Source of the DNA: Flavobacteriia bacterium | Lineage (GTDB): Bacteria; Bacteroidota; Bacteroidia; Flavobacteriales_D; Crocinitomicaceae | Assembly (NCBI GenBank): GCA_947455515.1 | Contig: CANGOF010000010.1 | Coordinates: forward strand, 1 to 46,587 | Direction of reading: 5' to 3' | DNA: 46,587 nucleotides | In this document: in pieces, positions 3-35,675 of the stretch | Layout: every line of letters starts with the position of its first letter | How positions within the stretch are numbered: the stretch's first letter is position 1 | The notes under the pieces: generated by a model | Database searches by the model: none | What the model was told of the DNA's origin: nothing | What the model saw: the letters and a program-made list of their open reading frames with translations, nothing else | Program-made: the position numbers and the translations under genes

Positions 3-1265
3 ATGAAATTTAAATCTAAATTAGTAAGTGCAGCTTTCGTACTTGCGTCCAGTCTTGCTTTTTCTCAAGCAGATTCAACAAAAAACGAAGAAGGAAAACT
101 GTCGATTAATGGATTCATAGATAGTTATTATTTCACCAATTTTAATAACCCAATGTCGCAAGATAATATGGGTCAATCAGGTGTTGGTCGTGGATTTGAT
201 CGTAAAGTAGACCAATTTAACCTTGGGATGGTACAAACAGTTTTTAAATACACAAACAAACGTTCAGAAATGGTTGCGGACTTAGTATATGGTCCTTCTG
301 GGCAATATGGTAATTACGGTAATGTTCCTGACTTAAAAGATGCAGGAGGAGGAACAGGTGGTTATAAAATAGGATACGATATTGTTTCTGGTATTATGAT
401 CAAACAAGCCTATTTTAAATACAATGCAACAGAAAAACTTTCATTTTCAGCTGGTCAATTCTCTACACACATAGGGTACGAATACATCGAATCTTCTTTA
501 AATTTCCATTATTCTATTAACCACACCTTTAATAGTGGTGTTCCTTTCTATCACACTGGTGTTAAAGCAAATTATCAATTCAATGAAAAGTTTGCTGCAA
601 TGGTTGGTATTGTAAATGGTTTTGATCATTTAGATGATAATAACCGTGCTAAGGGAATTATCGGTCAAGTTGCATTTACACCGAAAGAAGGATATGCAAT
701 CTATGCAAATTACTTCTCTTCAAACGAAGCAAATCCAACAGCATCAGGTTACCTTCCTAAAGCAAATTTTTCTATTTATGACTTAAATGGGTCTTTTCAA
801 GTTACTGAAAAATTGAACTTAGGTTTCTGGACTTTGTTAGGAACTCAAAAAGGGAACCAAGATGCATCCTCTCCTGGGATAGCTGGATTAATTGATAAAG
901 CAGACACAATTAAAACAAAAAACTGGAGTGGATATAATATATATGCTGCTTGGAAATTCACCGACAAATTTTCGTTAGGTCTTCGTTCTGAGTATTTTAA
1001 TAACAAACAAGGCGCAAGAGGGTTAAGAAATGTAGATGCTGTTGCTAACAAACAAATAGGTGCAGATGTATACACTTTCACTTTGACTGGTCAAATTACC
1101 TTAGCAGATGGTCATCTTTTATTGAAACCAGAACTTCGATACGACCAATGGGCTAAAGTAACAGGAGTAGGAAATGAAAATAGCCAACAATTCATGGATT
1201 CTAAAGGTGTTTTTAATAAAAACACTCAAACAACCTTAGGAATGGCAATGATTTATAAATTCTAA
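3..1265 (+). CDS. Outer-membrane beta-barrel protein, porin-like (BBP2/OmpL-like)
   Basis: The 420-residue product opens with a clear signal peptide (MKFKSKLVSAAFVLASSLAFSQA). The rest alternates short aromatic-rich strands with glycine/asparagine turns and ends in a terminal aromatic (MAMIYKF), as expected of an outer-membrane barrel. Stretches such as NGFIDSYYFTNFNNP and FSAGQFSTHIGYEYIES match the pattern of the Bacteroidota putative beta-barrel porin-2 family as I remember it. The ATG lies two bases from the window edge, so its promoter and upstream neighbour cannot be seen. The substrate is unknown. The following sensor gene starts 85 bases downstream and may or may not be co-transcribed. 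The barrel call is firm; the exact family is moderate. Confidence 0.8.
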   Translation: MKFKSKLVSAAFVLASSLAFSQADSTKNEEGKLSINGFIDSYYFTNFNNPMSQDNMGQSGVGRGFDRKVDQFNLGMVQTVFKYTNKRSEMVADLVYGPSGQYGNYGNVPDLKDAGGGTGGYKIGYDIVSGIMIKQAYFKYNATEKLSFSAGQFSTHIGYEYIESSLNFHYSINHTFNSGVPFYHTGVKANYQFNEKFAAMVGIVNGFDHLDDNNRAKGIIGQVAFTPKEGYAIYANYFSSNEANPTASGYLPKANFSIYDLNGSFQVTEKLNLGFWTLLGTQKGNQDASSPGIAGLIDKADTIKTKNWSGYNIYAAWKFTDKFSLGLRSEYFNNKQGARGLRNVDAVANKQIGADVYTFTLTGQITLADGHLLLKPELRYDQWAKVTGVGNENSQQFMDSKGVFNKNTQTTLGMAMIYKF

Positions 1266-1267
1266 TA

Positions 1268-1288
1268 GGGGTTAGTCGGGAAAGACCC
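1268..1288. repeat. Small hairpin with core GGGTTAGTCG, copy A
   Basis: GGGTTAGTCG is followed by GGAAAGACCC and can form a weak 4-base-pair GGGT/ACCC hairpin just after the barrel gene stop. A related element with the identical 10-base core occurs at 37389-37409. It could be a weak terminator or a dispersed intergenic element. There is no strong T-run. Confidence 0.35.
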
Positions 1289-1350
1289 ATTTTAATGTTT
1301 AACGTACGGATGTTGCAATGCAAAATCCATTTTATCAAAGATAAAACACG

Positions 1351-3768
1351 ATGCTAAAAAACCTATCACTCAAAAAACTTAAAATTGCACAGCAATTATT
1401 GTACACCTCCATTGTAATTATGGTTACTGTATCTCTATTAATTATTGGATACATTACGGTATCCTCTTTAAATAGTACTAACGAACAGTATGCAATTCAA
1501 GCAAAAGCAAATGCAACTTCTGTAATCGAAAAAATTGACCGTAACTTTTACGAGCGTTTTGGGGATGTACAAGCTTTTGCATTTAATAAATTGGCAGTTA
1601 GAACTGCTTACACAGATTCTGTAAAACAAGATGCGCAAGATTTTATCAATACAATGGTAAGTTACTATGTATTGTACGATTTGATGATGATTACAGACAT
1701 AAACGGAAACGTTGTAGCTGCAAATACTTTAGATAAAACTGGAAAAGCAGTAAACTCTTCCCAATTAATAGGAACTAATTTTGCAAACGAAGATTGGTTT
1801 AGAACATGTATCTCTGGTGCAGGTCCCCAAGGTGGAGCATGGTTTTCAGATTTTATTGTGAATAAACAATCAGCAGAATTAAATGGGAATAATGGTTGGG
1901 GTATGGCTTTTGCTGCTCCAATTAAATCTCCAGATGGAACCGTTGTAGGTACTTGGTACAATTTTGCAAACTGGGCAGAAGTTACACAAGGTATTCGAAG
2001 AGAAACACAAGCGGCTTTAAATGAAGTGCTGCCAGGAACTTTTATGTTGGTTTCTAATGCTACGGATGAAATTATTGACGCAGATGATGAAGGGTTGGTT
2101 AATAACAAAACTCCTATGTCTGAAGCTGATTTCAATAATGGATCAACTTTCACGTATAAAGGTCAATTAATTTCAAATGATGATTATATCGTTGGTAAAA
2201 CAACAGGACATGGTGCATATATCTACAAAGGAAAAGACTGGAATGCACTAACATTTATTCCTAAAGCGAAATTTAATTTTGCATATTTTATTGAAAATTT
2301 ATTGATACTATTTATCGCAGTTATTTTAATTACAATATTCGTTTGTTATATATTCTATCTACTAGCAAGAAGTATTTCTTCAAACATTAATCGTTTAAAA
2401 GAAGATTTAGAAGTCTTGGCTTCAGGAAATTTAGTGGAAATAAAAGAAGTAAATACAGAAGATGAAATAGGGCAAATGTCAGTAGCACTTAAAGGTCTAG
2501 TTGATGGATTAAAAGAGAAATCTGAATTTGCTGAAAAAATAGGCTCAGGTGAATTACAAGTAAATTACGAAACTTTAAGTAATCAAGATATTTTAGGTCA
2601 TTCATTATTAAACATGCGTGATAATTTAGTGAAAGTTGCAGAAGACGATAAAAAACGTAATTGGGCTACCGAAGGGATCGCTAAATTCGGGGACATTCTT
2701 CGTGCAAATAATGAAGGTATTGAAGTGCTTTCTGAAAATATTATCTCTAACCTAGTAAAATATTTAAATGCAAATCAAGGTGCGTTATTCGTTGTCAATG
2801 ATGCAGACAGAAATGATGAGTTTTTGGAATTGACTGCATGTTATGCTTGGAACAAGAAAAAATATTTACACATGCGTGTAGATAAAGGAGAAGGATTAGT
2901 GGGCCAAGCTTGGCAAGAAAGTGATACAATTTACATCACGGACGTTCCAGAAGATTTCGTAAACATTACCTCTGGTTTAGGTGGTGCTACACCAAATTCG
3001 TTCTTAATCGTTCCGTTAAAAGTGAATGATGAAACCTTTGGTATCATTGAAATTGCTTCTTTCCAATTATTTGAACAATTCCATATTGAATTCGTGAATA
3101 AATTAGCGGAGTCCATAGCTTCTACACTTTCAACCGCAAAAACAAACGAACGTACAAAAATCTTGTTAGAGCAATCGCAACAACAAACGGAAGAAATGCG
3201 TGCGCAAGAAGAAGAAATGCGTCAAAACATGGAAGAGATGCAAGCTACGCAAGAAGAGATGGAACGTAAAGAAGCAGAAATGTCTCGTATGGTGGAGCAA
3301 ATGCAACAACAAGAAGAAGAAATGCGTCAAAACATGGAAGAAATGGTTGCTACGCAAGAAGAGATGGATAAGCAAAATGCAATTATCATCGAAAAAACTG
3401 CAGAAACAAGTGGAATCTTGGATGGAGTCAATGCTTCCATGGCAACAGTTGAATTTACTTTAGATGGATACATTATCACAGCCAATCAAAATTTCTTAAA
3501 TACAATGAAATGTGAGTTAGCGGATATCTATGGAAAACATCATCGTATTTTTGTAAAAGAGGATGAGAAAAATTCGGATGAATACCAACATTTCTGGAGT
3601 GATTTAGCTGCAGGAAAATCGAATAACAAAAGAAGATTTGAAAGAATTAACTTACAAGGAGAAAGTGTTTGGTTAAATGCAATTTACTTCCCTATCTTTA
3701 ATTCAAGTGGTGAAGTAGTGAAAATCTTAAAATACGCTACGGACATTACAGATTTAATCGTCGGTTAA
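1351..3768 (+). CDS. Membrane sensor: cache-like ectodomain, HAMP, GAF, coiled coil, PAS; no output enzyme
   Basis: The 805-residue protein has TM1 at about 16-38, a cache-like ectodomain of roughly 270 residues, TM2 at about 314-338 and a HAMP-like linker at about 338-390. A GAF domain follows at about 437-595 (GEGLVGQAW, SGLGGATPNSFLIVPL), then a Glu/Gln/Met-rich coiled coil at about 595-685 and a C-terminal PAS domain at about 693-803 (ending KYATDITDL). No histidine-kinase, diguanylate-cyclase, PP2C or MCP signalling tip is visible, so it must signal through a partner. CheR and CheB genes follow after a terminator and a probable promoter. The coiled coil carries a 35-codon internal repeat. 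A role as receptor for the downstream adaptation enzymes or phosphatase switch is inferred from position and from the shared GAF subtype. Confidence 0.8.
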   Translation: MLKNLSLKKLKIAQQLLYTSIVIMVTVSLLIIGYITVSSLNSTNEQYAIQAKANATSVIEKIDRNFYERFGDVQAFAFNKLAVRTAYTDSVKQDAQDFINTMVSYYVLYDLMMITDINGNVVAANTLDKTGKAVNSSQLIGTNFANEDWFRTCISGAGPQGGAWFSDFIVNKQSAELNGNNGWGMAFAAPIKSPDGTVVGTWYNFANWAEVTQGIRRETQAALNEVLPGTFMLVSNATDEIIDADDEGLVNNKTPMSEADFNNGSTFTYKGQLISNDDYIVGKTTGHGAYIYKGKDWNALTFIPKAKFNFAYFIENLLILFIAVILITIFVCYIFYLLARSISSNINRLKEDLEVLASGNLVEIKEVNTEDEIGQMSVALKGLVDGLKEKSEFAEKIGSGELQVNYETLSNQDILGHSLLNMRDNLVKVAEDDKKRNWATEGIAKFGDILRANNEGIEVLSENIISNLVKYLNANQGALFVVNDADRNDEFLELTACYAWNKKKYLHMRVDKGEGLVGQAWQESDTIYITDVPEDFVNITSGLGGATPNSFLIVPLKVNDETFGIIEIASFQLFEQFHIEFVNKLAESIASTLSTAKTNERTKILLEQSQQQTEEMRAQEEEMRQNMEEMQATQEEMERKEAEMSRMVEQMQQQEEEMRQNMEEMVATQEEMDKQNAIIIEKTAETSGILDGVNASMATVEFTLDGYIITANQNFLNTMKCELADIYGKHHRIFVKEDEKNSDEYQHFWSDLAAGKSNNKRRFERINLQGESVWLNAIYFPIFNSSGEVVKILKYATDITDLIVG
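3205..3368 (+). repeat. In-frame 105-base coiled-coil repeat (two copies)
   Basis: A 59-base segment starting CAAGAAGAAGAAATGCGTCA occurs at 3205-3263 and again at 3310-3368, differing at only a few positions, with an exact period of 105 bases (35 codons, five heptads). It encodes EEEMRQNMEEM-type coiled coil. The in-frame spacing suggests a recent internal duplication that preserved heptad register. Confidence 0.85.
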
Positions 3769-3788
3769 GTAAACTTTAATTTTATATC

Positions 3789-3820
3789 AAAAACCGACTT
3801 CCCATGGAGGTCGGTTTTTT
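3789..3820 (+). terminator. Rho-independent terminator after the GAF/PAS sensor gene
   Basis: AAAAACCGAC pairs with GTCGGTTTTT across an 11-base loop and runs into a T-tract. It sits about 20 bases after the sensor stop and separates that gene from cheR. Confidence 0.85.
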
Positions 3821-3885
3821 ACTTTCTGTTTAGAATTATTCTAAATAGAAAGCATATGTTTTATAACGTATTCAAAATACAGATT

Positions 3886-3893
3886 TAACTTTG
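3886..3893 (+). promoter_or_regulatory. Candidate Bacteroidota -7 box (TAACTTTG) upstream of cheR
   Basis: TAACTTTG fits the Bacteroidota housekeeping -7 consensus TAnnTTTG and lies 57 bases before the cheR ATG. No good TTG -33 element is seen at the expected spacing, so the call is moderate. It would drive cheR, cheB and the cytochrome-b5-like gene after the preceding terminator. Confidence 0.45.
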
Positions 3894-3949
3894 TATTTTT
3901 GGTAAATAGATTTGGAAGATACCTTAGTTGAGGCAAAACAAAAACTTTT

Positions 3950-4768
3950 ATGGAGCAAGAAATTGACATTATAGATATTCGAAAATTGGTAAACACTATT
4001 AAATCCGTTTATGGTTTTGATTTTGGTGAATACGCATTATCTTCTTTTAAAAGAAGGTTGGCTAGAATAATTGAAGTCTATAAGTTCGCTAACATGACGG
4101 AAGTTATTGAAAAGGTTAGGGTAGATAAACCTTTTTACGAACTTTTCTTGAAAGAAGTAACGGTGAATACAACGGAAATGTTTCGCGATCCATCCATGTG
4201 GAAAAAACTGAAAGAAACTGTTTTTCCGGTGGTAAAAGACTATTCAACCATCCGAATTTGGCATTCTGCATGCTCCACAGGAGAAGAGGTCTACTCTATG
4301 GCAATTGCATTGAAAGAAGCAGGTTTATACGATAAAGCAAGAATTTTCGCTAGTGATATCAATGAAGATGTAATTGCAAAAGCGTTAGAAGGAAAATATC
4401 CAGCTAGAAATATGGAACTCAATGGATTTAATTATGAAAAATTTGAAGGGAAACTCAAATTGAATAATTATTTTAAGTCAACTGGAGATTATGTGTTTAT
4501 GGATCAAGACCTACTACGTAATGTAACATTCAGAAAATTTGATTTAGTACAAGGAGAACAAACGATGCGTTTTGATATTATTCTATGTCGAAATGTGTTG
4601 ATTTACTTTAATCTTCCTTTACAGGATCAAATCGTTGGTAAATTTGCTAAATGTACTTCACAAGGTGGTTTCTTAGCTTTAGGGTCTAAAGAAACGATTG
4701 CTTGGTGTAAATCTGTAGAAAATTATAATACTTTTTCTCTAGAAGAGAAAATTTACCAAAGAAAATAA
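3950..4768 (+). CDS. cheR: CheR-type protein-glutamate O-methyltransferase
   Basis: The 272-residue protein has the CheR layout: a helical N-terminal domain (IRKLVNTIKSVYGFDF) followed by a SAM-dependent methyltransferase domain. Diagnostic motifs are WHSACSTGEEVYSMAIAL (SAM-binding loop) and FDIILCRNVLIYFN. The family methylates glutamates of chemoreceptors. No TPR or C-terminal receptor-tethering extension is seen. The gene is two bases upstream of cheB, so the two are almost certainly co-expressed. No cheA, cheW, cheY or classical MCP gene lies in the window, so the methylation substrate is open. The upstream GAF/PAS coiled-coil sensor is one positional candidate. Confidence 0.93.
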   Translation: MEQEIDIIDIRKLVNTIKSVYGFDFGEYALSSFKRRLARIIEVYKFANMTEVIEKVRVDKPFYELFLKEVTVNTTEMFRDPSMWKKLKETVFPVVKDYSTIRIWHSACSTGEEVYSMAIALKEAGLYDKARIFASDINEDVIAKALEGKYPARNMELNGFNYEKFEGKLKLNNYFKSTGDYVFMDQDLLRNVTFRKFDLVQGEQTMRFDIILCRNVLIYFNLPLQDQIVGKFAKCTSQGGFLALGSKETIAWCKSVENYNTFSLEEKIYQRK

Positions 4769-4770
4769 GT

Positions 4771-5337
4771 ATGAGTAATTATAAAGCGGTTGTTATAGGG
4801 GGGTCAGCAGGAAGTTTTCCGTTAGTAGTGAAAATTTTAGCAGCATTACCGAAAAATTATCCTTTTCCAGTATTTTTAGCATTACATCGCCTCAAACACA
4901 TCCGTAATGGGTTCGTGGAAGCATTAAGCCTTAAATCTAATATTCCTGTCGTCGAACCGCAGGATAAAGAGGTGATTAAGCCTGGAATAGCTTACCTTGC
5001 TCCATCCAACTATCATATGTATGTGGAATTAGGTAATACGATAGCGCTATCTACGGAAGATATGGTCAAATTTTCAAGACCTTCCATTGATCTGACCTTC
5101 GATACAGCATCGTATATTTATAAAGATAAAATGGTCGGTGTCATTGTTTCTGGGGCGAATACAGATGGTGCAGAAGGTATTAAGCGTTCCAAAGAAAGAG
5201 GAGCTTTTACGATTGCGCAAGATCCAGAGGAAGCAACGATTAAAACAATGCCTGATGCGGCAATCAAAGCTGCAGAAATGGATAAAATTTTAACAATCGA
5301 TGAAATTTGTAAATTTTTAATTTCAATTTCAAAGTAA
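4771..5337 (+). CDS. cheB: CheB-type methylesterase, catalytic domain only
   Basis: The 188-residue protein is only the CheB methylesterase domain. Putative catalytic residues are Ser12 in IGGSAGS, His39 in FLALHR and Asp132 in GVIVSGANTDGAEG. RPSIDLTFDTAS and AYLAPSNYHM match other conserved blocks. The usual N-terminal response-regulator receiver domain is absent, so activity cannot be controlled by CheA phosphorylation in the classical way. Start ATG follows the cheR stop by two bases and the next gene starts two bases after its stop, indicating a tight operon. It presumably reverses CheR methylation on a shared target. Confidence 0.92.
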   Translation: MSNYKAVVIGGSAGSFPLVVKILAALPKNYPFPVFLALHRLKHIRNGFVEALSLKSNIPVVEPQDKEVIKPGIAYLAPSNYHMYVELGNTIALSTEDMVKFSRPSIDLTFDTASYIYKDKMVGVIVSGANTDGAEGIKRSKERGAFTIAQDPEEATIKTMPDAAIKAAEMDKILTIDEICKFLISISK

Positions 5338-5339
5338 AT

Positions 5340-5582
5340 ATGGAAAATAATTTACCAATATATACTATTGAGGAACTTGCACTCAGAAATGGGCAGGAAA
5401 TGCCTGAAATTTGGGTTGGGTATAAAGGTAAAATTTACGATGTGACTACTTCTGAATTATTTAAAGATGGTTATCATTACTTTCACGCTACTGGAATTGA
5501 CTTAACAAACGATATGCCAGATGCTCCTCATTTGGAAGATGTAATGAATGATTTTGAAATTGTTGGAATATTAATGAATTAA
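5340..5582 (+). CDS. Small cytochrome-b5-like heme/steroid-binding domain protein
   Basis: The 80-residue protein is a single cytochrome-b5-like domain of the small soluble type (COG4892-like, from memory). Visible hallmarks are YTIEELALRNGQ, WVGYKGKIYDVT, GYHYFHATGIDLTND and DAPHLEDV. Histidines in the HYFHATG and DAPH segments could ligate heme. There is no signal peptide or TM segment, so it is cytosolic. It lies two bases after cheB and is the last gene before an AT palindrome. The position suggests a redox, gas or small-ligand input to the signalling cluster, but that is inference. Heme binding is not certain for this subfamily. Confidence 0.8.
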   Translation: MENNLPIYTIEELALRNGQEMPEIWVGYKGKIYDVTTSELFKDGYHYFHATGIDLTNDMPDAPHLEDVMNDFEIVGILMN

Positions 5583-5583
5583 T

Positions 5584-5603
5584 AATTTATTAATTAATAA
5601 ATT
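5584..5603. repeat. Perfect 20-base AT palindrome
   Basis: AATTTATTAATTAATAAATT is its own reverse complement and is followed by AAATATTTTTTG. It sits between the cytochrome-b5-like gene and the GAF gene. It could be a weak AT-rich terminator, a cruciform or a dimeric regulator site. It contains no G or C, so a strong RNA hairpin is unlikely. Confidence 0.5.
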
Positions 5604-5662
5604 AAATATTTTTTGTAAGTTTATAAGCAATAATACGTATAAATTAAAACTGCAATACGAAT

Positions 5663-6139
5663 ATGAGTTCAGAAAGAATGGATAAGATTATAGCGAAAGT
5701 AAAAGATGCAACTTCCTTGAAAGATTTTGCGAAAGATTTACTTTGGTCAATTGCAAAAGAATTAGATGCATCTCAAGGTGCTTTTTTCACAACTTCAACA
5801 AACAAGGAAGGTATTCATATTATTCAGTTTTTAGCTGGGTATGCATACCATTTACCTGAATCGGAAACAATTGAATATGAATTTGGTGAAGGACTTTCTG
5901 GTCAAGTTGCAAAAGAAGGTAAATTGATTAATATCCAAACAGTTCCAGATGGATACATTCAAATCCTTTCTGGCTTAGGGCAATCAAGCCCAAATTCTAT
6001 TATCATCTTTCCGATTATCAAAGACAATAAGGTGATGGCAGTTGTTGAGTTAGCATCATTTAAATTATTCTCAAAAGAAGAAGAAAACTTTTTAATAGAG
6101 CTATCTTCCAATGTAGTAACTTTAATGGATAAGTTTTAA
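5663..6139 (+). CDS. Stand-alone GAF-domain protein
   Basis: The 158-residue soluble protein is essentially one GAF domain. It shares the block GEGLSGQVAKEG, then VPDGYIQILSGLG and SPNSIIIFPI with the GAF domains of the 805- and 879-residue sensors in this cluster, so all three belong to one subtype. There is no transmembrane segment and no output domain. It begins 80 bases after the cytochrome-b5-like gene and ends 15 bases before the phosphatase gene, so it is probably translated with the latter. It may be a ligand-binding or dimerisation partner for the larger GAF proteins. The ligand is not predictable from sequence alone. Confidence 0.85.
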   Translation: MSSERMDKIIAKVKDATSLKDFAKDLLWSIAKELDASQGAFFTTSTNKEGIHIIQFLAGYAYHLPESETIEYEFGEGLSGQVAKEGKLINIQTVPDGYIQILSGLGQSSPNSIIIFPIIKDNKVMAVVELASFKLFSKEEENFLIELSSNVVTLMDKF

Positions 6140-6154
6140 GTATATTTCTATAGT

Positions 6155-8794
6155 ATGACACAAGTAGCTCGTAATAAACACAAACAAAAAGTATTAGTAA
6201 AGTATTTTACTAAATCCTTTTTAATTGGTTCCGCAATTTTATTAATTCTATTAATTAGTTTTTTAGCTGGTTCTAAACACCCTTTTTCATTGGAGGGTTT
6301 AAGTCTTTTGCATAAAGATAATTCCATATTATATTTTGTGGATTTAATGCCTATTATGTTAGGGATTTATTCTCTAACAGTTGGGATAAATTTTTATCAA
6401 AAAATTTCCAATTTAAATAAAACAGTTGAAAATCAAACGGAAGCGATTCAACGAACAGCGCAATTTGCCGAACAAATTGGAAAAGGAGAATTTAATTCCG
6501 AATTTACGCCAAACGGGGAAAAAGATCTTCTTGGTAATGCATTATTGGAGATGCGTACAAGTCTATTGGAAGCGAATAAAAACGAAGAAGAACGTAATTG
6601 GATTATTTCTGGGATAGCTGAAGTAAGTGAAATTCTGAGAAGAAATACAGAATTAGTGCTTTTAAGTGAGGAAGTTACCGCTTTCTTGACTAAAAAGATT
6701 GGTGCTATTCAAGGTGCATTTTACATAGTTAACGATGATAATGAAGAGGATATTTTCATTGAAATGGTTGGAAGTTATGCATACAATAAGAAAAAATACT
6801 TAAATGCTAAATTTCGTTTTGGCCAAGGCTTAGTTGGTCAAGCGTGTATTGAGCAGGATACCGTTTTCAGAACAGAAATTCCAAACGACTATGTAACGGT
6901 GACATCTGGTTTATTAGGAGATCGTAAACCTTCAAGTATCTTGATTGTTCCTCTAATCACAAATGAGTCTGTTTATGGTGCCGTAGAATATGCTGGATTT
7001 GAAAAATTCACGCCTTTACAAGTGAAATTTATTCAAGAACTAAGCGACATCGTTGCTCGTACTATTTTTAATGTTAAAGTAAACGAGAAAACAGTTCGAC
7101 TGTTAAATGAATCTCAAAAAATGAGTTCGGAGTTAAGTGAACAAAGTCAACAATTGATGGAAAATGCACGTCAAATGCAAGAAAATCAAGAAATGATTGA
7201 GCGCACAAATAAAGAACTGGAAATTCAAATCGAAGAGGTAAATAAGAGTCAGGAGCGTACACAAGTATTGTTGGAAAATGCCTCTGAGATTATCAATATT
7301 TACGATGAGGAAGGAAATGTGAAGTATGCCAGTCCTTCTGTACGCAACATCTTAGGGTACCAACCAGAAGGTCTTGTTGGCACTTTAGAAACAGATCGTG
7401 TTCACCCGAAAGGAAAAGATACTGTTAAGAAATTATTTGAAGATTTAAAATACAATCCTGGAAATGTTTATACAGCTCAGTATACCTATTTGAAACCGGA
7501 TGGTAGTAGAACTTGGGTAGAAACTACTGGTCGTAACTTAGTGGATAATCCTTCGATTAATGGTATTTTGTTTAATATTCGCGATATTACGGAACGTAAA
7601 AAAGCGGAAAAAGAACAACGCGAAAGAGCAAAAATGCAAGCACTTTCTGAAAACTCCTTAGATATCATTTTACGTTTCGATTTAGTTGGAACAATTAGTT
7701 ATGTGAATCCAGCGATTGAAAAATACACAGGATTTGCATCCTCTGAATTCTTAACCGCAAATATTGATACGATTTCTTTAGATGCAAGCATCGTTGAAAA
7801 ATGGAAAGAATTTTTAGAAGAAGTAAAAGCAAAAAATAGCCACGTTAGTACTGAAATGGAATTTATTGACTTAAATGGAAATAAATTGTTCATGGAGGTA
7901 AATGCATTACCTGAATCAGGTGAAGACGGCGAATTAGAGTCTATCTTAATGATTCTTCACGATATTTCTGAAGCAAAAGAGGCGGAACATAAAATTAAAG
8001 AAGCAAATCAAAAGGTTCAAGATAGTATTAACTACGCTAAGCGTATTCAAAATTCTATTTTACCAAAAGAAATCGTTTTGAGTGATGTATTTCCTAACTC
8101 ATTCATGATGTTTCGTCCGAAGGATATCGTAAGTGGAGATTTTCCTTTTATCGTACAAAAAGAAGGATTTATTTATTTTGCAGCTGCCGATTGTACAGGA
8201 CATGGTGTACCAGGGGCGTTGTTATCCGTAATTGGTTCTTTGATTTTAAATGAAATTATTACCTATGAAACTCCAACTCCTTCGGTAATGTTGGATAAAT
8301 TACATAGTTCCATGGTAAAAACATTACGTCAAGGACAAGAAGGTGGTGAAAATGAACGTGATGGTATGGATGTTGGTATGTGTCGTTTAAATTTAGAAAC
8401 GGGTGAATTCTGTTTCTCTGGTGCGCACAGACCTTTATATATTGTTCGTCACAACCAAAAAGCAGACGAAGAATTGGAAGAATTAAAAGGAGATAAATAT
8501 CCTATCGGTGGAGTTCAATATCGTGGTAGAGATGTCTTTACAAATTTTGAAACTGTTCTTAAAAAAGGGGATAGGGTATATGTTTGTTCAGATGGATTTC
8601 CAGACCAATTTGGAGGACCTTACCCAACGGATGATTTGAAAAAATTTGGTCCGAAAAGAATTCGCCAAATTTTAGTGGAAAATAAAGATAAATCGATTGC
8701 TGAAGTAAATGTAGCCTTACAAGGTGCATTTGATGAATGGCAAGGACCACATAAACAAATGGATGATGTTTTATTTATCGGGATGGAGTTTTAA
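6155..8794 (+). CDS. Membrane GAF-PAS-PAS-PP2C (SpoIIE-type) serine/threonine phosphatase, SiaA-like
   Basis: The 879-residue protein has two N-terminal TM segments (about 21-41 and 66-85) with a short loop and a HAMP-like linker. A GAF domain follows (about 150-300), then a coiled coil (about 305-365), two PAS domains (about 365-480 and 485-615) and a C-terminal SpoIIE/PP2C phosphatase (about 630-879). Metal-binding blocks VSGDF, AADCTGHGVPGA, CSDGFPDQFGG and MDDVLF are intact. The family dephosphorylates anti-sigma-antagonist-like or SiaC-like proteins. With SiaB- and SiaC-type genes directly downstream it occupies the SiaA position, though its sensory half differs from the HAMP-only SiaA architecture. 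The likely target is the SiaC homologue at 9524. Confidence 0.9.
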   Translation: MTQVARNKHKQKVLVKYFTKSFLIGSAILLILLISFLAGSKHPFSLEGLSLLHKDNSILYFVDLMPIMLGIYSLTVGINFYQKISNLNKTVENQTEAIQRTAQFAEQIGKGEFNSEFTPNGEKDLLGNALLEMRTSLLEANKNEEERNWIISGIAEVSEILRRNTELVLLSEEVTAFLTKKIGAIQGAFYIVNDDNEEDIFIEMVGSYAYNKKKYLNAKFRFGQGLVGQACIEQDTVFRTEIPNDYVTVTSGLLGDRKPSSILIVPLITNESVYGAVEYAGFEKFTPLQVKFIQELSDIVARTIFNVKVNEKTVRLLNESQKMSSELSEQSQQLMENARQMQENQEMIERTNKELEIQIEEVNKSQERTQVLLENASEIINIYDEEGNVKYASPSVRNILGYQPEGLVGTLETDRVHPKGKDTVKKLFEDLKYNPGNVYTAQYTYLKPDGSRTWVETTGRNLVDNPSINGILFNIRDITERKKAEKEQRERAKMQALSENSLDIILRFDLVGTISYVNPAIEKYTGFASSEFLTANIDTISLDASIVEKWKEFLEEVKAKNSHVSTEMEFIDLNGNKLFMEVNALPESGEDGELESILMILHDISEAKEAEHKIKEANQKVQDSINYAKRIQNSILPKEIVLSDVFPNSFMMFRPKDIVSGDFPFIVQKEGFIYFAAADCTGHGVPGALLSVIGSLILNEIITYETPTPSVMLDKLHSSMVKTLRQGQEGGENERDGMDVGMCRLNLETGEFCFSGAHRPLYIVRHNQKADEELEELKGDKYPIGGVQYRGRDVFTNFETVLKKGDRVYVCSDGFPDQFGGPYPTDDLKKFGPKRIRQILVENKDKSIAEVNVALQGAFDEWQGPHKQMDDVLFIGMEF

Positions 8795-8869
8795 AAACTA
8801 ACATTTTGATTTTAAAAATTATATATAGTATATTAGTATTAACAATTAACAAATAAGTAACTTTATCGT

Positions 8870-9490
8870 ATGGAAGAGTTAAGAAGCAATTCAGAATTAC
8901 ATAGTAAATCTGATTACATGAAATTCGTTGTGAATTTCCACAGAATGATGGTAGATAAGAAACTTACTCTTGCCTATGAAGGGGAGGTGACGCAAGAAAT
9001 CACTAAAGCATTTACTTCAATGACAGAAAAAAATCTGGAGAAAATTGAAGAAGATGGAAAAATCAAGAAAAAAGTATACCACGTAATGGTAGAATGTTTG
9101 CAAAATATAGCAAAACATGCAGATGATGATACGGCTACAGCTTCTGATACCTTAGAAGAAGGTTTGGCTAAAACAGGTATTTTTATTATTGGTAGTGATG
9201 ACCAAGAATATTTTATAACTTCTGGAAACGGAATTTTAAATGAAAATATTCCTGCTTTGAGAGAAATGATTGATAATATCAATATTTTAGATAAGGATGG
9301 ATTAAAAGAATTGCATAAATTCAAAATGCGTGAAACAGCTATTTCAGATAAAGGTGGAGCTGGTTTAGGTTTTATTGATATCGCTCGTAAAACTGGAAAC
9401 CCATTAGAATATCACTTCGAACCAATTGACGCTAATAGTTCATTTTTCTTGTTAAAATCAAGAATTACTAAAGGAGCTTCTGAAGATTAA
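8870..9490 (+). CDS. siaB: SiaB-family protein kinase (GHKL-like ATPase fold)
   Basis: The 206-residue soluble protein matches SiaB-family kinases. It has an N-box-like segment VMVECLQNIAKHADDD, a GNGI turn and a G-box KGGAGLGFIDIARKTG, the expected ATP-binding features of GHKL kinases related to anti-sigma factors. In Pseudomonas aeruginosa SiaB phosphorylates SiaC, opposed by the PP2C phosphatase SiaA. Here the PP2C gene is 75 bases upstream and the SiaC gene 33 bases downstream, in the same order. The pairing is therefore well supported, but the partner controlled by the switch is not encoded nearby. Confidence 0.88.
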   Translation: MEELRSNSELHSKSDYMKFVVNFHRMMVDKKLTLAYEGEVTQEITKAFTSMTEKNLEKIEEDGKIKKKVYHVMVECLQNIAKHADDDTATASDTLEEGLAKTGIFIIGSDDQEYFITSGNGILNENIPALREMIDNINILDKDGLKELHKFKMRETAISDKGGAGLGFIDIARKTGNPLEYHFEPIDANSSFFLLKSRITKGASED

Positions 9491-9523
9491 TTAATTTTTT
9501 TAAATTGTAAATAGATACCTAAT

Positions 9524-9898
9524 ATGGAACCATTAATTATAAGTAAAACAGACGATACACCTGCAATCACGTTAGATAAAGCAGCGGGTAAATTTGAATT
9601 TTCTGGTAAATCATTACCTGAAGATGTAAGTACTTTTTATGCACCAGTGTTTGCATGGATTTCTGCTTATGGCGAGGATGCAAATCCTGAATCTACGTTT
9701 GTATTTAAAATGACGTATTTTAATACTGCATCTTCTAAAATTATCTTAGACGTATTAATGCGTTTAGAAGAGTTACATGAAGATGGAAAAAACATTACAG
9801 TAGAATGGCACTACGAAGAAGATGATGAAGATATGCAAGAAGCAGGTGAAGAGTATTCTGAAATCGTTGAAATTCCATTCAAGTTTATAGAAGATTAA
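9524..9898 (+). CDS. siaC: SiaC-family regulatory phosphoprotein (DUF1987)
   Basis: The 124-residue acidic protein fits the SiaC/DUF1987 family: PAITLDKAAGKFEFSGKS near the N-terminus, FYAPVFAWISAYGEDANP in the middle, and KMTYFNTASSKIILDVL. The threonine in YFNTASS is residue 68, the same number as the SiaB-phosphorylated Thr of Pseudomonas SiaC as I recall it. In Pseudomonas, unphosphorylated SiaC binds and activates the diguanylate cyclase SiaD. No GGDEF gene is present here, so the effector must be elsewhere or of a different kind. It is the last gene of the run and is followed by a hairpin. Confidence 0.9.
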   Translation: MEPLIISKTDDTPAITLDKAAGKFEFSGKSLPEDVSTFYAPVFAWISAYGEDANPESTFVFKMTYFNTASSKIILDVLMRLEELHEDGKNITVEWHYEEDDEDMQEAGEEYSEIVEIPFKFIED

Positions 9899-9920
9899 TA
9901 ACAATTCGTTGTTATTTGTT

Positions 9921-9952
9921 AATGCTAGGTTGTTGTATTACAATCTAGCATT
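9921..9952 (+). terminator. Hairpin after siaC, probable terminator
   Basis: AATGCTAGGTTGT pairs with ACAATCTAGCATT (13 base pairs with one G-T wobble) around a 6-base loop, followed by a T-rich but not uniform tract. It separates the signalling cluster from the ABC transporter. A two-fold operator site is an alternative reading. Confidence 0.6.
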
Positions 9953-10041
9953 TGCTGTATTTTAGAGTTTTATTTTATTCAAAAAATAAGTATTTTAACT
10001 AATCTTTTTAGATTCAGTGATTTACTTGAAAATTTTATACA

Positions 10042-13000
10042 ATGTCTGAGGAAATATTAAAGGCCCTGATGCAATTATTTGCCATTATTGCTAAGCAAGA
10101 TGGCGGCGCTTCTCAAAGTGAACGTAAGTTTGTTGAGGAATTCTTAGTGTTCCAATTAAGTGAAGAATTGGTTAGGGAATACCTTGCCCAATACGATGAA
10201 TTTGTTGGTCCGGTCGAATTAGATGAGGATGGAAATCCAATTCAAAAATTGACATCGGTGAAGGATTCGGTAAAGACTTTAGGTATTTGTAAAAAGATTA
10301 ATAAAACACTTACACAAAAACAAAAAGTTATTGTACTTGTTCGTCTATTAGAGTTGATAGCTGCTGACCGTTCTTTCTCGGAACAACGTATGGCAATTAT
10401 CCACACTGTATCGGAAGTATTTAAATTCGAAGAAGCTGAATTTCAAGCTATCGTTGATTTTTGTGTAAATGAAACAGAAGATTTGAAATCGGTTCCAGAA
10501 ATAATGGTAATCGATAGTTCCGATGAGGATTGGAATTTTGAATGCAAACACATATCATCTCAATTAGATGGAAATATTGTTATTCTAAAAGTTGTTTCGG
10601 AAGATTTATATTTTTTAAAGTATACGGGTAAAAGCGATATTTTCTTAAATGGTTTACCTGTAAACCCTATGAGAATGTACTTGTTTGCAGCTGGTAGTAC
10701 GGTAAAAGTTCCAGGTGGTAAACCTGTATTCTACTCCGATGTTGTTGCAAATTTCATGGCAGACGGAGATGGATTAAAATTGTCATTCCATGCCGACAAC
10801 GTTAGCTTTAAGTTTCCAAATGGAGCAACAGGTTTGCGTGACATTAATATTTCTGAAGGTTCAGGGAAATTAGTTGGATTAATGGGTGCTTCTGGAGCAG
10901 GAAAAACAACTTTGCTCAATGTACTTTCTGCGATAGAACCAGTTACAGAAGGACAAGTTCTAATCAATGGAATAAATATTCATACCGAAAAAGACAAGGT
11001 AAAAGGTTTAATTGGGTATATCCCTCAAGATGATTTATTAATTGAGGAATTGACCGTTTTTGAAAACCTTTTCTACAATGCCAAATTATGTTTCAAAGAT
11101 TTAAACGACGAAGAAATTACCGAATTGGTAATGAAAGTCTTAAACAATCTTGGTTTAGCAGAACGTAAAGATTTGAAAGTGGGTAATCCTCTGCAAAAAA
11201 CAATTTCAGGAGGCCAACGTAAACGACTAAACATTGGTTTGGAGCTAATTCGTGAACCTGCTGTGTTGTTTGTGGATGAACCTACCTCTGGACTTTCTTC
11301 TCGCGACTCAGAAAACGTAATGGATTTATTACGTGAGTTGACTTTGAAAGGAAAATTGATTTTTGTGGTGATTCACCAACCATCTTCAGACATCTACAAA
11401 ATGTTTGATAAAATCATTTTCTTAGACGTTGGTGGATATCAAATTTACTACGGTAATCCTGTGGAAGCTGTGGTGTATTTTAAACATGCAGATCACCAAG
11501 TAAATGCAGAACAAGGCCAATGTTTGGTCTGTGGTAATGTGAATCCTGAAATTATCTTCAACATCATCGAAGCGAAAATCGTCGATGATTATGGTAATTA
11601 CACAAAAAACAGAAAGGTTACTCCGGAACAATGGAAACAACTGTACGATAAAAACTCAAGCTATGTTCGCTCAGAAGATATCAAAGAGGTTCCAGAATTT
11701 GGCTTAAACATTCCTTCTTGGTTAAAACAAACAAAGATTTTTGCAACGCGTGATTTATTTTCTAAAATCAGTAACAAACAATATTTGTGGATCAATTTAT
11801 TGGAAGCTCCACTATTAGCTTTGGTACTTTCTTACATTATCCGTTACGTTGAAATTCCAGGTACAGACTATATTTTCCGTAATAACGAGAACATTCCTGC
11901 ATTTATTTTCATGAGTATTATCGTGATGTTGTTTGTTGGATTAACCGTTTCCGCAGAAGAAATTTTCCGTGACCAAAAAATATTGAAACGTGAAAAATTC
12001 CTGAATTTAAGTAAGTCAAGTTACTTAGTATCCAAAATTGGAATTCTATTTACCCTTTCCGCAATTCAATCGTTATTGTTTGTAGTAATTGGTAATTCAG
12101 TGGTTGGAATACATGGTATGTATTGGGATTACTGGTGGATGTTATTTACCGTTTCTTGTTTTGCTAATATGTTAGGTTTAAATATTTCTGCAAGTTTTAA
12201 CTCTGCAGTTACCATCTACATATTAATCCCAATCATTGTGATTCCTCAAATGATTTTGGGTGGTGCAATGTTTAGTTTCGATAAATTAAACGATTCTATC
12301 GGTGGTGGAAAACAAGTTCCTCCGATGATTGCTGAAGTAATGGTTTCTCGTTGGGCATACGAAGGTTTAGTTGTAGATCAATTTAAAAACAATCCGTTCG
12401 AACGTGAAATTTTTGATTTGGAACAAAAAGAAAGTATGTGTAGCTATAAACAAGCATTTTTTATTCCTAAATTACAAGAGTATGCAGATGAAAGTATTTC
12501 TTTAATTAATGTAATTGGAGATTCTGCAGATAGTATAATGAAGGATCGTTTATGGGTGATAAGAAAATCTTTAGCTTCGGAAAAGAAATTAATTCCAAAT
12601 GTACGCGTGGCGATTGACGATATCGAAAAATTTAATTTTAATGAGTTTGATGATGTGCAAGGAGAAAGGTTGAAAACTATATTGGACAACTTATTGAGTT
12701 ATTACTCAGAGATTTTCAATTCTGTGAATGGTAAAAAAATGTTGTTATTATCCAAGTTGCAAGATACTCCGGAGAAACAAAAAGAATTTGTTCAAGCCAA
12801 AGATGATTATTTAAACGATTACCTAACAGAAGTAGTAACAAAATCAACAGATAAGGACAAAATCATCATAAAAAATCATGAAATAATCCAAAAAAAGGAT
12901 CCGATTTTTATGGATGCGAATACGGAAAGCGTGTTAAGTTTTAGAACACATTTTTATGCACCAACCAAAAATTTCTTTGGATCTTTGATTGGGACGTATG

Positions 13001-13107
13001 GTTTTAACATTTTGATGATATGGATGTTTACTTTCGTGTTATATGTTGTTTTGTATTACGATGGATTAAAAAAAGCTTTGAATTTAGTTGGAAACAAAAA
13101 TCATTAA
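10042..13107 (+). CDS. ABCG-type ABC transporter with N-terminal TerB-like domain and large TM5-TM6 loop
   Basis: The 1021-residue protein fuses four parts. Residues about 1-150 are helical and TerB-like (FAIIAKQDGGASQSERKFV). Residues about 155-235 form a small beta-rich, possibly FHA-like, segment. The ABC ATPase lies at about 254-480, with Walker A GASGAGKTT, signature TISGGQRKRLNIGLEL and Walker B AVLFVDEPTSGL. An ABC-2/ABCG-type membrane domain follows from about residue 580. Five TM helices come first, then a soluble stretch of roughly 220 residues and a last TM near the C-terminus. The NBD-before-TMD order and signature are ABCG-like, so it probably works as a homodimer. The substrate is unknown. 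It starts after a hairpin, and the adhesin gene begins only 16 bases after its stop. Confidence 0.85.
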   Translation: MSEEILKALMQLFAIIAKQDGGASQSERKFVEEFLVFQLSEELVREYLAQYDEFVGPVELDEDGNPIQKLTSVKDSVKTLGICKKINKTLTQKQKVIVLVRLLELIAADRSFSEQRMAIIHTVSEVFKFEEAEFQAIVDFCVNETEDLKSVPEIMVIDSSDEDWNFECKHISSQLDGNIVILKVVSEDLYFLKYTGKSDIFLNGLPVNPMRMYLFAAGSTVKVPGGKPVFYSDVVANFMADGDGLKLSFHADNVSFKFPNGATGLRDINISEGSGKLVGLMGASGAGKTTLLNVLSAIEPVTEGQVLINGINIHTEKDKVKGLIGYIPQDDLLIEELTVFENLFYNAKLCFKDLNDEEITELVMKVLNNLGLAERKDLKVGNPLQKTISGGQRKRLNIGLELIREPAVLFVDEPTSGLSSRDSENVMDLLRELTLKGKLIFVVIHQPSSDIYKMFDKIIFLDVGGYQIYYGNPVEAVVYFKHADHQVNAEQGQCLVCGNVNPEIIFNIIEAKIVDDYGNYTKNRKVTPEQWKQLYDKNSSYVRSEDIKEVPEFGLNIPSWLKQTKIFATRDLFSKISNKQYLWINLLEAPLLALVLSYIIRYVEIPGTDYIFRNNENIPAFIFMSIIVMLFVGLTVSAEEIFRDQKILKREKFLNLSKSSYLVSKIGILFTLSAIQSLLFVVIGNSVVGIHGMYWDYWWMLFTVSCFANMLGLNISASFNSAVTIYILIPIIVIPQMILGGAMFSFDKLNDSIGGGKQVPPMIAEVMVSRWAYEGLVVDQFKNNPFEREIFDLEQKESMCSYKQAFFIPKLQEYADESISLINVIGDSADSIMKDRLWVIRKSLASEKKLIPNVRVAIDDIEKFNFNEFDDVQGERLKTILDNLLSYYSEIFNSVNGKKMLLLSKLQDTPEKQKEFVQAKDDYLNDYLTEVVTKSTDKDKIIIKNHEIIQKKDPIFMDANTESVLSFRTHFYAPTKNFFGSLIGTYGFNILMIWMFTFVLYVVLYYDGLKKALNLVGNKNH

Positions 13108-13123
13108 AAACAAAAAACAATAG

Positions 13124-16100
13124 ATGGCAGTTAACAAACTACATATCTTTTTTTTTAAAGAAAAAATTACTTTTTTGGTAGTTTTATGTAGTTTGTTTTG
13201 CTTCCAAAAAAAATCATTTTCTCAATGTACTCCTATAATTGAGTTTACAACTACTTCAGGTACACTAAGTGGATGTGCGCCATTTAGTGTTTCATTTAAA
13301 GATCCAAATACTACTTCTTCTCGTTCATGGGATTTTGGAGATGGAAAATCAACGTCAGGAGCTCAAAGTCCATTTCACACCTTTGATGGAGGTGTAATCG
13401 GTGATACAACCTATACGGTTACTTTAACAAAAGCTTGTAATGGAGGGGTTTCTACCGACGTGACTGTAACAGTATACGCCAAGCCGAAAATTAATTTTAA
13501 GGTAGATACTACTTCTGTGTGTGCTATTAATGACCAAGCTAAGTTCACTAATTTATCAGAAGCAGGAGCTTATTTATGGAACTTTGGAGATAATACTTCA
13601 TCTACCACGAAGCACCCAACTAAAGCATATAATTCTGGAGGTAAATACGATGTTTCCTTAAAGGTTACCAATGTTCATGGTTGTGAGGACACGAAAGTGA
13701 AACCAAAAATGATGACGGTAAACTCTTTACCTAGTCCAGATTTTACGTTAAACAAGTATTCAGGTTGTACTCCTTTGACATTGAATATAAAAAACACTAC
13801 CGATACGACCAATGTGCAAATCAAATATTGGAGCTGGAACCTAGGAGATGGAAGTAAATTAGATTCTTCCAGTGTCCCGGCATCCCATGATTATACTATT
13901 CCTGGCACGAAAACTATTGTCTTAACGACAACTTCTGTATTAGGGTGTAAAAGTAGTACTTCTAATACAATTAGTGTCTTAACTTCTCCCAGTTCGGATT
14001 TTAGTATTTCCCCTACTGAAATATGTTCAAGTGATTCTTTAAAAATTACTTATTTAGGAAGTGCAGGACCAAATGCAAACTATGCTTGGAGTTTAAATGG
14101 TGGTATAGCTACTCCTGGAATTGGAAAAGGACCTCATTGGGTGAATTGGATTAAAGGGGGGGTAAAAACGTTAAGCTTAACGGTCACAGATAGTACATGT
14201 TCTTCTATTTCAACCAAACAAGCAACAGTTTTAGTTAGTCCTATTATTTCTTTTGTAGCATCCAATGATACAATTTGCATAGGGGATGAAGTTACATTTA
14301 CTACTTCGCCGGCATCGTTAGTCGATTATAAGGTGTACAAAAACGGAAGTCTATATCAGACGATGGAAGAGAATGAATTTACAACTTCCTTACTGTCTAC
14401 TGGAGACGTATTTTATGTAGTTGCAACTGATGTGAAAGGATGTAAATCAAAGAAAAGTAATTATGAACGAATGGTAGTAAAAACCAGACCTGTAGTTTCT
14501 TTGTTAAGTTCTGATTTAGATAATATTATATGTTCTGGAGATTTAGTTACGTTTAGTGGTATACCCACAAATTATTCAAGCTATACGTTTTATAATTTTA
14601 GCCAACCTCTACAAATAGGTGTGTCAACGAATTTAAATACAACTACCTTAACAGATAATGACTCTATTTTTGTTGAGGCTACCAATTTCAATGGATGTGC
14701 AAAAATGTCGAGTAATGCTTTTGTAATGAAAGTACTCCCACCATTGCCTAAACCTGTTGTAAATTGTGGAGCATCTACTGATAGTCAAGTATCGTTTGTA
14801 TGGGGAGATATTCAAGGTGCTTCTGGGTACCAAGTGAGTGTAAATGGTGGAGCATTTCAAGATCCTAGTTCGGGCTTGACTGGTTTATCCCATGTTTTCG
14901 GAGGACTTTCCAGTGGAGATTCTACAAAAATTGTAGTAAAAGCAATCGGCTCGTTTTCATGTGCTACAAGCTTAGTTTCCAAAGCAAAATCGTGTGTTTC
15001 GAAAGTTTGTACTCCTTTTACTATGAAGTATACTCCTTTCGATACAATATGTAGTGGTGAAGCAGTTAAATTACGTGTTGACAATATATCTGCTACCAAT
15101 TATTCTGTATCATGGAATGGTGGAGCTCCAAGTAAAGATACAACGTTTACTTTTCATCCAGCATTAGATTCGGAAATTACTGCTGTAATTAAAGATTCAT
15201 CTCAATTATCTTTTTGCTCAAATTTTGATGCAACATTTAGGATTAAAGTTTATCCACTTCCACTTGTAACACTTAATTCAAGTTTATCTCCAATTAATTG
15301 TAAAGGAAATGTAGCAAAATTAACTGCAACACCTTCCAATTATGATTATTATACATTTTATAGTGGAAATCAAATTTTACAATCCAGTTGGAAAAATTAT
15401 TTTACTTTGAAAAATGTAAAGAATGGGGTTCCATTAACCGTTGTAGCAGAAAATTTTGGTTGCAAAGCGACTTCAACAAACACCATTATAAATACGGTTA
15501 TAGAACCACTTGCACAACCAGTTGTGAACTGTGGAGGTTCAACGACTTCTTCTATGGAGTTCACGTGGGATGCGATTCCAAATTCCATTGGCTATGAAAT
15601 CAGTGTGGAAGGGGGGAATTGGATAACACCAAGTTCAGGTGTTACAGGATTGAAACATTTGATAAATGGGTTAACTCCAGGGACAGCATCTTATGTTTCT
15701 GTTCGTGCATTAGGTGCAACGGTTTGTGGAAATTCAAAAGTTTCAGTTCAAGCAAGTTGTTTTACGAATCCCTGTACTGCAATTACTTATAACGCTCCAA
15801 CAACAGTTAGTATCTGTCAAGGTGCCAAAACAAATATTGCGGTTACCGGTATTAATATCCCTAAATACGAAGTTGCATGGAATAAAACTACGTTTGCAAA
15901 AGCTACTTCCTTTAATGTTAAACCTACAAAGGATACTATTATTACTATTAATGTTAGAAATGCGAATGAATTAAATTGTCCTTATGTAACAAAATACACA
16001 CGTATTGAGGTGATAGAACAACCAAATGTTTCCTTAGCGATTTCTCCTACTTCTAATTGTTTTGGGGATTCTGTTTCTTTAATTGCTAAACCAGTTACCT

Positions 16101-19774: not shown

Positions 19775-20730
19775 TAAAAGAGAAAAGACATAGCTTATTT
19801 TTAATGCAATTTTCATTGTTTTTAGGAATGGTATTGTCTGTTTTTACAAGCCTCGGTCAACAGGAACCGATGTATACGCAAAATAATTTTGACCGTTTGA
19901 CTTTTAATCCAGCCTATGCTGGAAGTTCCAATTGGATTGTCACATCTGTTAAACATCGAAGTCAATTTGTAGGTTTAGATGGTGGACCAAATACAGACAT
20001 AATCACCATTCATGCACCTTGGCAAGCAAGATCTGTAGGTTATGGAGGTAAAATTGTTTCCGATAGACTTGGAGTAACAAATCAAACAGGAGTTAGTGGA
20101 ATAGGTGCTTATCACTTAGGTTTGGGTAAAGGAAAAATGTCAGTTGGTTTGGAATTAGGATTATATATGCAAAGTATTGATTTTTCTACGTTGTATAAAC
20201 TTGAAAAAATTGACAATGCAATTCCTCCAGGTAAAACGACTAAGGCTAAATTAGATGGTGCTTTTGGATTACAATATCAAACTAAAAACTATTTTTTAGG
20301 ATTATCTGTTCAGCATTTGTATGGAGGTAGTTTAAATTTTTCAAATTACGATAGATCGATTGTTGCGCATTTATATAGACATTGGTTTTTGTCAGGTGGA
20401 TATGTAAAGGACTTATCAAAAAATTTATCCATGCAACCATGTTTTCTAGTGAAAAAAGTATCTGGTGCACCTATGCAGGTTGATTTATATGCAAATTTTA
20501 TATATAAAGAAAAATATACTTTGGGAATTGGATATCGTACTGGAGATGCTTTAACTTTTTCCATGAAAATTCATATTACAGATGCTATTCGATTGTCATA
20601 CTCGTATGATTTTAGAATTTCTCAAATCGCTAATTATTCTGGTTCAGCGCAAGAATTTATGTTGCGCTATGGGATTAAATTACTACCTCCACAACAAATA
20701 AAAGAAATTAATCCAAGATACTATTTCTAA
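19771..20730 (+). CDS. PorP/SprF-family type IX secretion membrane protein
   Basis: The 319-residue protein has a signal peptide and the family opening QQEPMYTQNNFDRLTFNPAYAGS, followed by a beta-barrel-like pattern typical of PorP/SprF. These outer-membrane proteins help secrete or attach specific type-B-signal adhesins (SprF with SprB is the known example). The start chosen is GTG, whose GTGA overlaps the TGA stop of the adhesin gene, indicating translational coupling. An internal ATG at 19804 would still leave a shorter signal peptide and is the alternative. The gene between the adhesin and the OmpA protein completes a three-gene surface module. Confidence 0.92.
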   Translation: MIKEKRHSLFLMQFSLFLGMVLSVFTSLGQQEPMYTQNNFDRLTFNPAYAGSSNWIVTSVKHRSQFVGLDGGPNTDIITIHAPWQARSVGYGGKIVSDRLGVTNQTGVSGIGAYHLGLGKGKMSVGLELGLYMQSIDFSTLYKLEKIDNAIPPGKTTKAKLDGAFGLQYQTKNYFLGLSVQHLYGGSLNFSNYDRSIVAHLYRHWFLSGGYVKDLSKNLSMQPCFLVKKVSGAPMQVDLYANFIYKEKYTLGIGYRTGDALTFSMKIHITDAIRLSYSYDFRISQIANYSGSAQEFMLRYGIKLLPPQQIKEINPRYYF

Positions 20731-20732
20731 AT

Positions 20733-35401: not shown

Positions 35402-35402
35402 G

Positions 35403-35630: not shown

Positions 35631-35645
35631 GTTTTCTTTTTTAAT

Positions 35646-35675
35646 CAAATATACTAAATAGATTATTTTTTTCAA
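35646..35675 (-). promoter_or_regulatory. Promoter of the toxin-antitoxin operon (TTG-N19-TATATTTG)
   Basis: Read on the minus strand, TTG at 35675-35673 is followed after 19 bases by TATATTTG at 35653-35646, a textbook Bacteroidota promoter. The start codon at 35630 lies 15 bases beyond the -7 box, so the leader is very short. Confidence 0.75.

Follow-up and report, generated by a model that had tools for sequence, protein, structure and literature searches.

An output-less dCache-HAMP-GAF receptor encoded beside cheR and cheB as a candidate non-MCP methyl-accepting sensor

The stretch of DNA analysed here, hereafter the window, is a 46,587-nucleotide contig (C10) from a 2.9 Mb Bacteroidota genome (167 contigs, 86.5% complete), and encodes, next to cheR and cheB, a receptor which is not a methyl-accepting chemotaxis protein (MCP), as the defining tip is absent, and which may work like one. 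The reading that we favor, with about an even chance of being correct, is that the receptor is a non-MCP methyl-accepting sensor, adapted by CheR and CheB and signalling in trans to a PP2C/SiaBC module. The locus thereby suggests a chemotaxis-style memory acting on a PP2C switch pathway, in bacteria most of which have no chemotaxis receptors.

An earlier note on this DNA had described a large receptor-like open reading frame beside cheR/cheB, with Cache-like, HAMP, GAF, coiled-coil and PAS modules all present, but lacking an MCP tip and any kinase, cyclase or phosphatase domain. This description was borne out by the intact reading frame, by Pfam and by an AlphaFold2 (AF2) model searched with Foldseek, giving the following architecture:

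1351–3768 (+): receptor, 805 aa, intact reading frame ordered TM-dCache-TM-HAMP-GAF-Glu coil-PAS, without output domain (ORF, Pfam)
1456–2307 (+): periplasmic dCache sensor domain, residues 36–319 (AF2, Foldseek)
2359–2514 (+): HAMP, residues 337–388 (Pfam, E=1.4e-5)
2719–3129 (+): GAF, residues 457–593 (Pfam GAF_2, E=3.8e-14)
3076–3333 (+): continuous helix out of the GAF, residues 576–661, candidate methyl-accepting coil (AF2 model, conservation profile)
3436–3753 (+): C-terminal PAS, residues 696–801, absent from many relatives (Pfam)

Pfam reported no Cache domain on the full-length receptor; the isolated N-terminal domain matched dCache_1 at E=8.5e-5, short of the curated cut-off, and six of nine relatives match this profile. 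The AF2 model of residues 36–319 (pLDDT 86.5) retrieved the ligand domains of DctB, KinD and PctA with Foldseek (E about 1e-10, probability 1.0), and the weak profile match together with the fold identifies the domain as a dCache. Pfam found neither a kinase nor a GGDEF, PP2C or MCPsignal domain in the receptor. Since PF00015, the MCPsignal profile with the conserved hairpin tip, has no match in it, the protein does not class as an MCP, and with neither histidine kinase nor receiver domains found by Pfam it is not a hybrid kinase; it does have the HAMP-GAF and E-E-h heptad coil beside cheR/cheB that mark the CheR/CheB-linked hybrid kinases. The gene is preceded by one for a BBP2/OmpL-like porin (window 3–1265), as it is in several relatives, with L013 and L015 as examples; the porin may supply the sensed ligand.

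The Glu-rich coil, AQEEEMRQNMEEMQATQEEMER, spans residues of about 606–672 and carries its motif twice, at 620 and 655. The duplication is offset by exactly 35 residues, i.e. five heptads, so that the heptad register is kept:

3208–3261 (+): coil copy 1, EEEMRQNMEEMQATQEEM, with EEMQAT at 628–633; candidate methylated Glu 629, also 622 and 636
3313–3366 (+): coil copy 2, EEEMRQNMEEMVATQEEM, 35 aa downstream, with EEMVAT at 663–668; candidate Glu 664

In the AF2 model of residues 318–805 one helix runs from the GAF domain through the coil, with a pLDDT of about 90 over most of its length. The methylation consensus of E. coli is E-E-x-x-A-S/T, and the Glu pairs of Tsr at 297/304/311 lie 7 residues apart (PMC1079850). 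The receptor coil contains this consensus twice and has Glu pairs at 621, 628 and 635, likewise every 7 residues, with the pairs at heptad positions b and c and the A/T at f and g. When the coil segment was shuffled 20,000 times, the observed count of (E-E-h-x4)3 heptads was never reached, and that of E-E-x-x-A-S/T was reached in 0.07% of the shuffles. Two points speak against the coil as a CheR substrate. The residues before the Glu pair are R-Q-N-M, where some MCP consensus forms have small residues, and methylation sites in MCPs sit on an antiparallel four-helix bundle, whereas the receptor coil probably dimerizes in parallel and would offer CheR a different surface.

Within the Bacteroidota receptor family no other part is as well conserved as the coil. 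The window receptor and two receptors encoded on another contig of the same genome (C41) share 31–41% identity overall, and AQEEE-x-RQNMEEMQATQ-x-EMER is almost invariant among them. Since loci were fetched by RQNMEEM-like patterns, conservation within that motif is partly selection bias, and only flanking positions were counted as evidence: across 139 distinct coil windows, the positions outside the selection were conserved as A 91%, T 93%, Q 92%, E 97%, E 87% and M 89%. Two c positions swap E and Q (52/38 and 60/25), as is expected where Gln can replace a methylated Glu.

Downstream of the receptor lie cheR, cheB and a set of genes resembling the SiaABC system:

3789–3819 (+): terminator-like hairpin ending the receptor's unit, 14 pairs and a T tail
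3950–4768 (+): cheR, stand-alone methyltransferase, SAM motif kept (Pfam 1e-39; PDB 5ftw 3.5e-30; tree)
4771–5337 (+): cheB, methylesterase domain alone, no receiver (Pfam 3e-47; PDB 3sft 2.2e-26)
5340–5582 (+): small cytochrome-b5-like protein between cheB and the GAF gene (Pfam 5.2e-6)
5663–6139 (+): stand-alone GAF protein, 29% identity to the receptor GAF (Pfam)
6155–8794 (+): PP2C phosphatase, SiaA-like, GAF-(degenerate coil)-PAS-PAS-SpoIIE, probable output (Pfam)
8870–9490 (+): SiaB-family kinase (NCBIfam NF038262 5.6e-50, over the family cut-off; PDB 6kko)
9524–9898 (+): SiaC-family phosphoprotein, phospho-Thr motif N-T-x-S kept (Pfam 3.6e-41, over the Pfam cut-off and under the NCBIfam equivalog cut-off; PDB 6kko alignment)
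9921–9952 (+): terminator-like hairpin ending the cheR-siaC unit, 13 pairs

The two terminator-like hairpins set cheR-siaC off as a unit of its own, so that in this genome receptor and cheR, though neighbors, probably do not share a transcript, a point against the favored reading. CheR has both the CheR_N and CheR domains with the SAM-binding motif, and CheB, in which Pfam found no usual receiver domain, keeps its catalytic Ser-His-Asp when aligned to 3sft. The PP2C matched NCBIfam SiaA at 1.5e-42, under the equivalog cut-off, and PDB 6k4e at 5e-31. In alignments with solved homologs, CheB, PP2C, SiaB and SiaC show matching catalytic or phosphosite residues, and the window encodes PP2C, SiaB kinase and SiaC with the conserved Thr. 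A SiaD diguanylate cyclase was not found, there being no Pfam GGDEF among the ten genes at 3–13107; with no SiaD nearby, the ABC transporter encoded after the SiaC gene (10042–13107), which bears a TerB domain at its N-terminus, could be a SiaC target. Further along, inspection by eye indicated a 2216 aa repeat protein with a gliding-type C-terminal sequence and PorP/SprF-like and OmpA-like proteins (13124–23576), a gene set typical of type IX secretion/gliding loci, as well as two small overlapping genes resembling a RelE/ParE-type toxin-antitoxin pair (35099–35675, reverse strand).

In the proposed mechanism, ligand sensing would take place in the periplasmic dCache domain, from which the signal would travel through HAMP and GAF to the single Glu-rich helix. 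CheR would methylate, and CheB demethylate, exposed Glu pairs of the coil, with E629 and E664 as the best candidates followed by E622 and E636, and the methylation level would set receptor sensitivity in the manner of chemotactic adaptation. The coil, probably dimeric, would in turn control the PP2C of the locus in trans, the latter having a homologous GAF/coil front end; PP2C would oppose SiaB kinase on SiaC, the output being the SiaC phosphorylation state. We infer the contact between receptor and PP2C from gene neighborhood and fusion, and propose the direction of control. The earlier note overlooked this downstream PP2C/SiaB/SiaC set, which probably carries the output in trans.

A scan of GTDB contigs gave 412 relatives, of which 79 loci, all titled Bacteroidota, were fetched. 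These fall into two main neighborhoods: the receptor with cheR-cheB-PP2C-SiaB-SiaC, an arrangement seen repeatedly and in many genera, and a receptor standing alone, preceded by a gene of the YfiR/HmsC type. In L083, L164 and L169 there is no gap between receptor and cheR, the two adjoining or overlapping, and in L063 the gap is 9 bp. About 49 relatives, mostly from Cyclobacteriaceae/Fulvivirgaceae, lack a cheR within 10 kb and in most cases have the YfiR/HmsC-like gene (PF13689) directly upstream instead, which counts against the favored reading and rules out a universal operon; 12 of 12 such genomes tested encoded CheR elsewhere, with 2–11 matches each. The periplasmic PF13689 protein was seen upstream of most stand-alone coil receptors from L024 to L090 (e.g. 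L031:8807–9361, L041:8867–9364 and L075:8787–9302), its position suggesting a YfiR-type input to the output-less receptor.

Many relatives stop just after the coil, without a PAS domain, making the coil rather than the PAS the common terminal element. The coil also occurs in PP2C proteins: L084, L162, L184 and L210 carry it intact (EEMQATQEEL or near variants) between GAF and PAS-PP2C, and L155, L157 and L159 elsewhere in the chain. In the window PP2C the Glu pairs are lost, which would make it a poorer substrate. That PP2C keeps a Glu coil only where a separate receptor is absent is a suggestive pattern, confounded by lineage. In large CheR-domain proteins (G207:C36, G106:C56, G169:C108 and others), the CheR domain is followed about 0.7–1.2 kb further on by runs of E-E-L-x4 heptads; apparently the Glu coil can also be joined to CheR in cis.

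Co-occurrence was assessed in 247 genomes of the class, drawn evenly and, except for the window's own, at least 90% complete, with relatedness partly controlled and a real CheR defined as E<1e-10. The coil motif was present in 29 of the 247 and never in the reversed control. All 29 coil genomes encoded CheR, compared to 62 of the 218 others (Fisher 1e-14); at genus level 16/16 coil genera were CheR-positive (p=8e-8), and inside the four genera whose status is mixed the coil went along with CheR (p=0.002; 0.0004 counting one variant coil). SiaC was likewise found in 29/29 coil genomes and in 109/218 others (p=1e-8). An MCP was encoded in only five of the coil genomes and absent from the remaining 24, and 82 of the 91 CheR-bearing genomes of the class had none. 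With the looser (E-E-h-x4)3 pattern, 15 of the 87 genomes bearing it lacked CheR.

The analysis was also run from the CheR side. Among forty loci picked by stand-alone CheR alone, whether the coil was known or not, a HAMP-GAF gene like that of the receptor lay within three genes of CheR in 31. Such genes made up 38/226 near genes versus 2/583 far genes (p=4e-20), background and test coming from different taxa. Most of the CheR partners in this sample are HAMP-GAF hybrid kinases in which the coil after the GAF keeps the register of the receptor coil, with Glu pairs at b and c, the rest being PP2C systems resembling that of the window. Seven CheR-less genomes had a HAMP-GAF relative, in all cases a kinase and often with a poorer coil; related kinases in G041, G033, G075 and G108 retain some Glu pairs, and Glu heptads alone are thus no proof of a CheR substrate. 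Every genome in which an output-less receptor form was seen has CheR. The earlier note had put the coil forward, speculatively, as a CheR/CheB substrate in place of an MCP bundle. CheR in every coil genome, the conserved neighborhood, the in-register E. coli consensus and the 24 of 29 genomes without an MCP strongly support the coil in this role, the methylation step itself being what we infer from the comparison.

Profile and pattern searches, on which all statements about the window's own genome rest, revealed four CheR proteins, one MCP and two CheW-domain proteins (CheA and CheW). The only PF00015 match of the genome is on contig C14, in the cluster CheA-CheW-MCP-CheR-HK-CheD-CheB-CheY, which is apparently continuous with C41, as the end of C41 overlaps C14 in sequence. 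C41 encodes two further receptors of the window type, each adjoining a cheR, and additional coil receptors are encoded on C14 (three), C66 and C93. The split C41/C14 cluster (L009–L011, L008) comprises two cheR-plus-coil-receptor pairs, ParA, a STAS-like protein and CheY, and continues with CheA, CheW, a PAS-rich soluble MCP, CheR, CheD and CheB; components may be common to the chemosensory array and these receptors. The phylogenetic tree of CheR separated the MCP-linked CheRs from the PP2C-linked and HK-linked ones, placing the window CheR within a 16-row set of PP2C/receptor-linked CheRs (support 96/92) and the CheR of the C14 MCP on a distant branch. The possibility, raised in the earlier note, of an MCP elsewhere accounting for CheR/CheB was examined here: the lone MCP has its own CheR/CheD/CheB cluster and a CheR from a distant branch, and consequently does not account for the window CheR/CheB. 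As the true client of the window CheR it was ruled out on these grounds.

A different explanation would be that CheR and CheB stand beside the receptor by coincidence, serving the MCP, and that the receptor is a decayed hybrid kinase minus its kinase. The genome does have an MCP, and related HAMP-GAF proteins are mostly kinases; however, that MCP has its own CheR, CheB and CheD, most coil genomes have no MCP at all, and a decayed protein would not retain the coil as its most conserved part across many genera, all of which renders this reading very improbable. Decay of a kinase was rejected on the conservation of the coil, the restriction of output-less forms to CheR genomes and the finding that the relatives in the seven CheR-less genomes are all kinases. 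It is also conceivable, if rather unlikely, that the coil is an unmethylated docking or assembly element binding PP2C, other HAMP-GAF proteins or CheR, and that CheR/CheB modify another protein of the locus, e.g. the PP2C or the stand-alone GAF protein. Such a role would suit the homologous coils in PP2C proteins, the receptors that end directly at the coil, and a near-total conservation of surface positions including R-Q-N (where selection bias applies) which exceeds the need of a methylation consensus. Nonetheless, Glu pairs at b and c, A-T at f and g and E/Q interchange have the look of methylation sites, and the PP2C without its Glu pairs would be the poorer substrate.

The receptor might also be methylated as proposed while its output is not PP2C/SiaBC but separate kinases or the CheA array of the C41/C14 cluster. 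Two coil receptors of this genome adjoin the CheA-CheW-MCP cluster, many relatives are distant from PP2C genes, and CheR is more often partnered by HAMP-GAF-coil hybrid kinases. The window receptor itself, however, adjoins PP2C-SiaB-SiaC and has no CheW-binding tip, SiaC accompanies the coil in every coil genome, and several genomes carry the coil as part of a PP2C protein, so that we regard this alternative as improbable. Methylation by CheR/CheB coupled to PP2C/SiaBC is the explanation we retain. More generally, and with similarly balanced confidence, CheR/CheB in Bacteroidota may chiefly be a general adaptation module for non-MCP HAMP-GAF sensors, the post-GAF (E-E-h-x4)n coil being the methyl-accepting domain and feeding hybrid kinases, PP2C/SiaBC partner switches or, in the present case, a separate output that is reached in trans. 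If this is true, glutamate methylation would serve as a memory for phosphatase switches and histidine kinases, beyond chemotaxis arrays. For CheR genomes that are largely MCP-free, the locus offers a candidate CheR substrate, single mutable residues and an output module.

In the open-access literature nothing was found linking CheR to SiaABC or to HAMP-GAF coils. With YfiR/HmsC (PF13689) and its membrane partner, the second group of relatives shares a periplasmic YfiR-like gene just upstream of the receptor, whereas the receptor has no GGDEF and the window receptor no such neighbor. With SiaABCD of Pseudomonas aeruginosa the window shares the PP2C phosphatase, the SiaB kinase and SiaC with its phospho-Thr motif; in contrast, it adds CheR/CheB and an output-less receptor, has no SiaD among the neighbors scanned, and has a GAF and PAS front end on its SiaA. 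The Bacteroidota hybrid histidine kinases linked to CheR/CheB (among L171–L209) have a related HAMP-GAF, after it an E-E-[LM] heptad coil, and adjoining stand-alone cheR and cheB, but carry HK and REC domains where the window receptor has none. In common with the MCPs Tsr, Tar and FrzCD, finally, are the dCache/HAMP input, Glu pairs at 7-residue spacing in a coiled coil, E-E-x-x-A-S/T, and CheR with CheB; unlike them, the receptor is without the MCPsignal hairpin tip, and hence without known CheA/CheW contact, and its coil comes after the GAF domain, followed by PAS or by the end of the protein.
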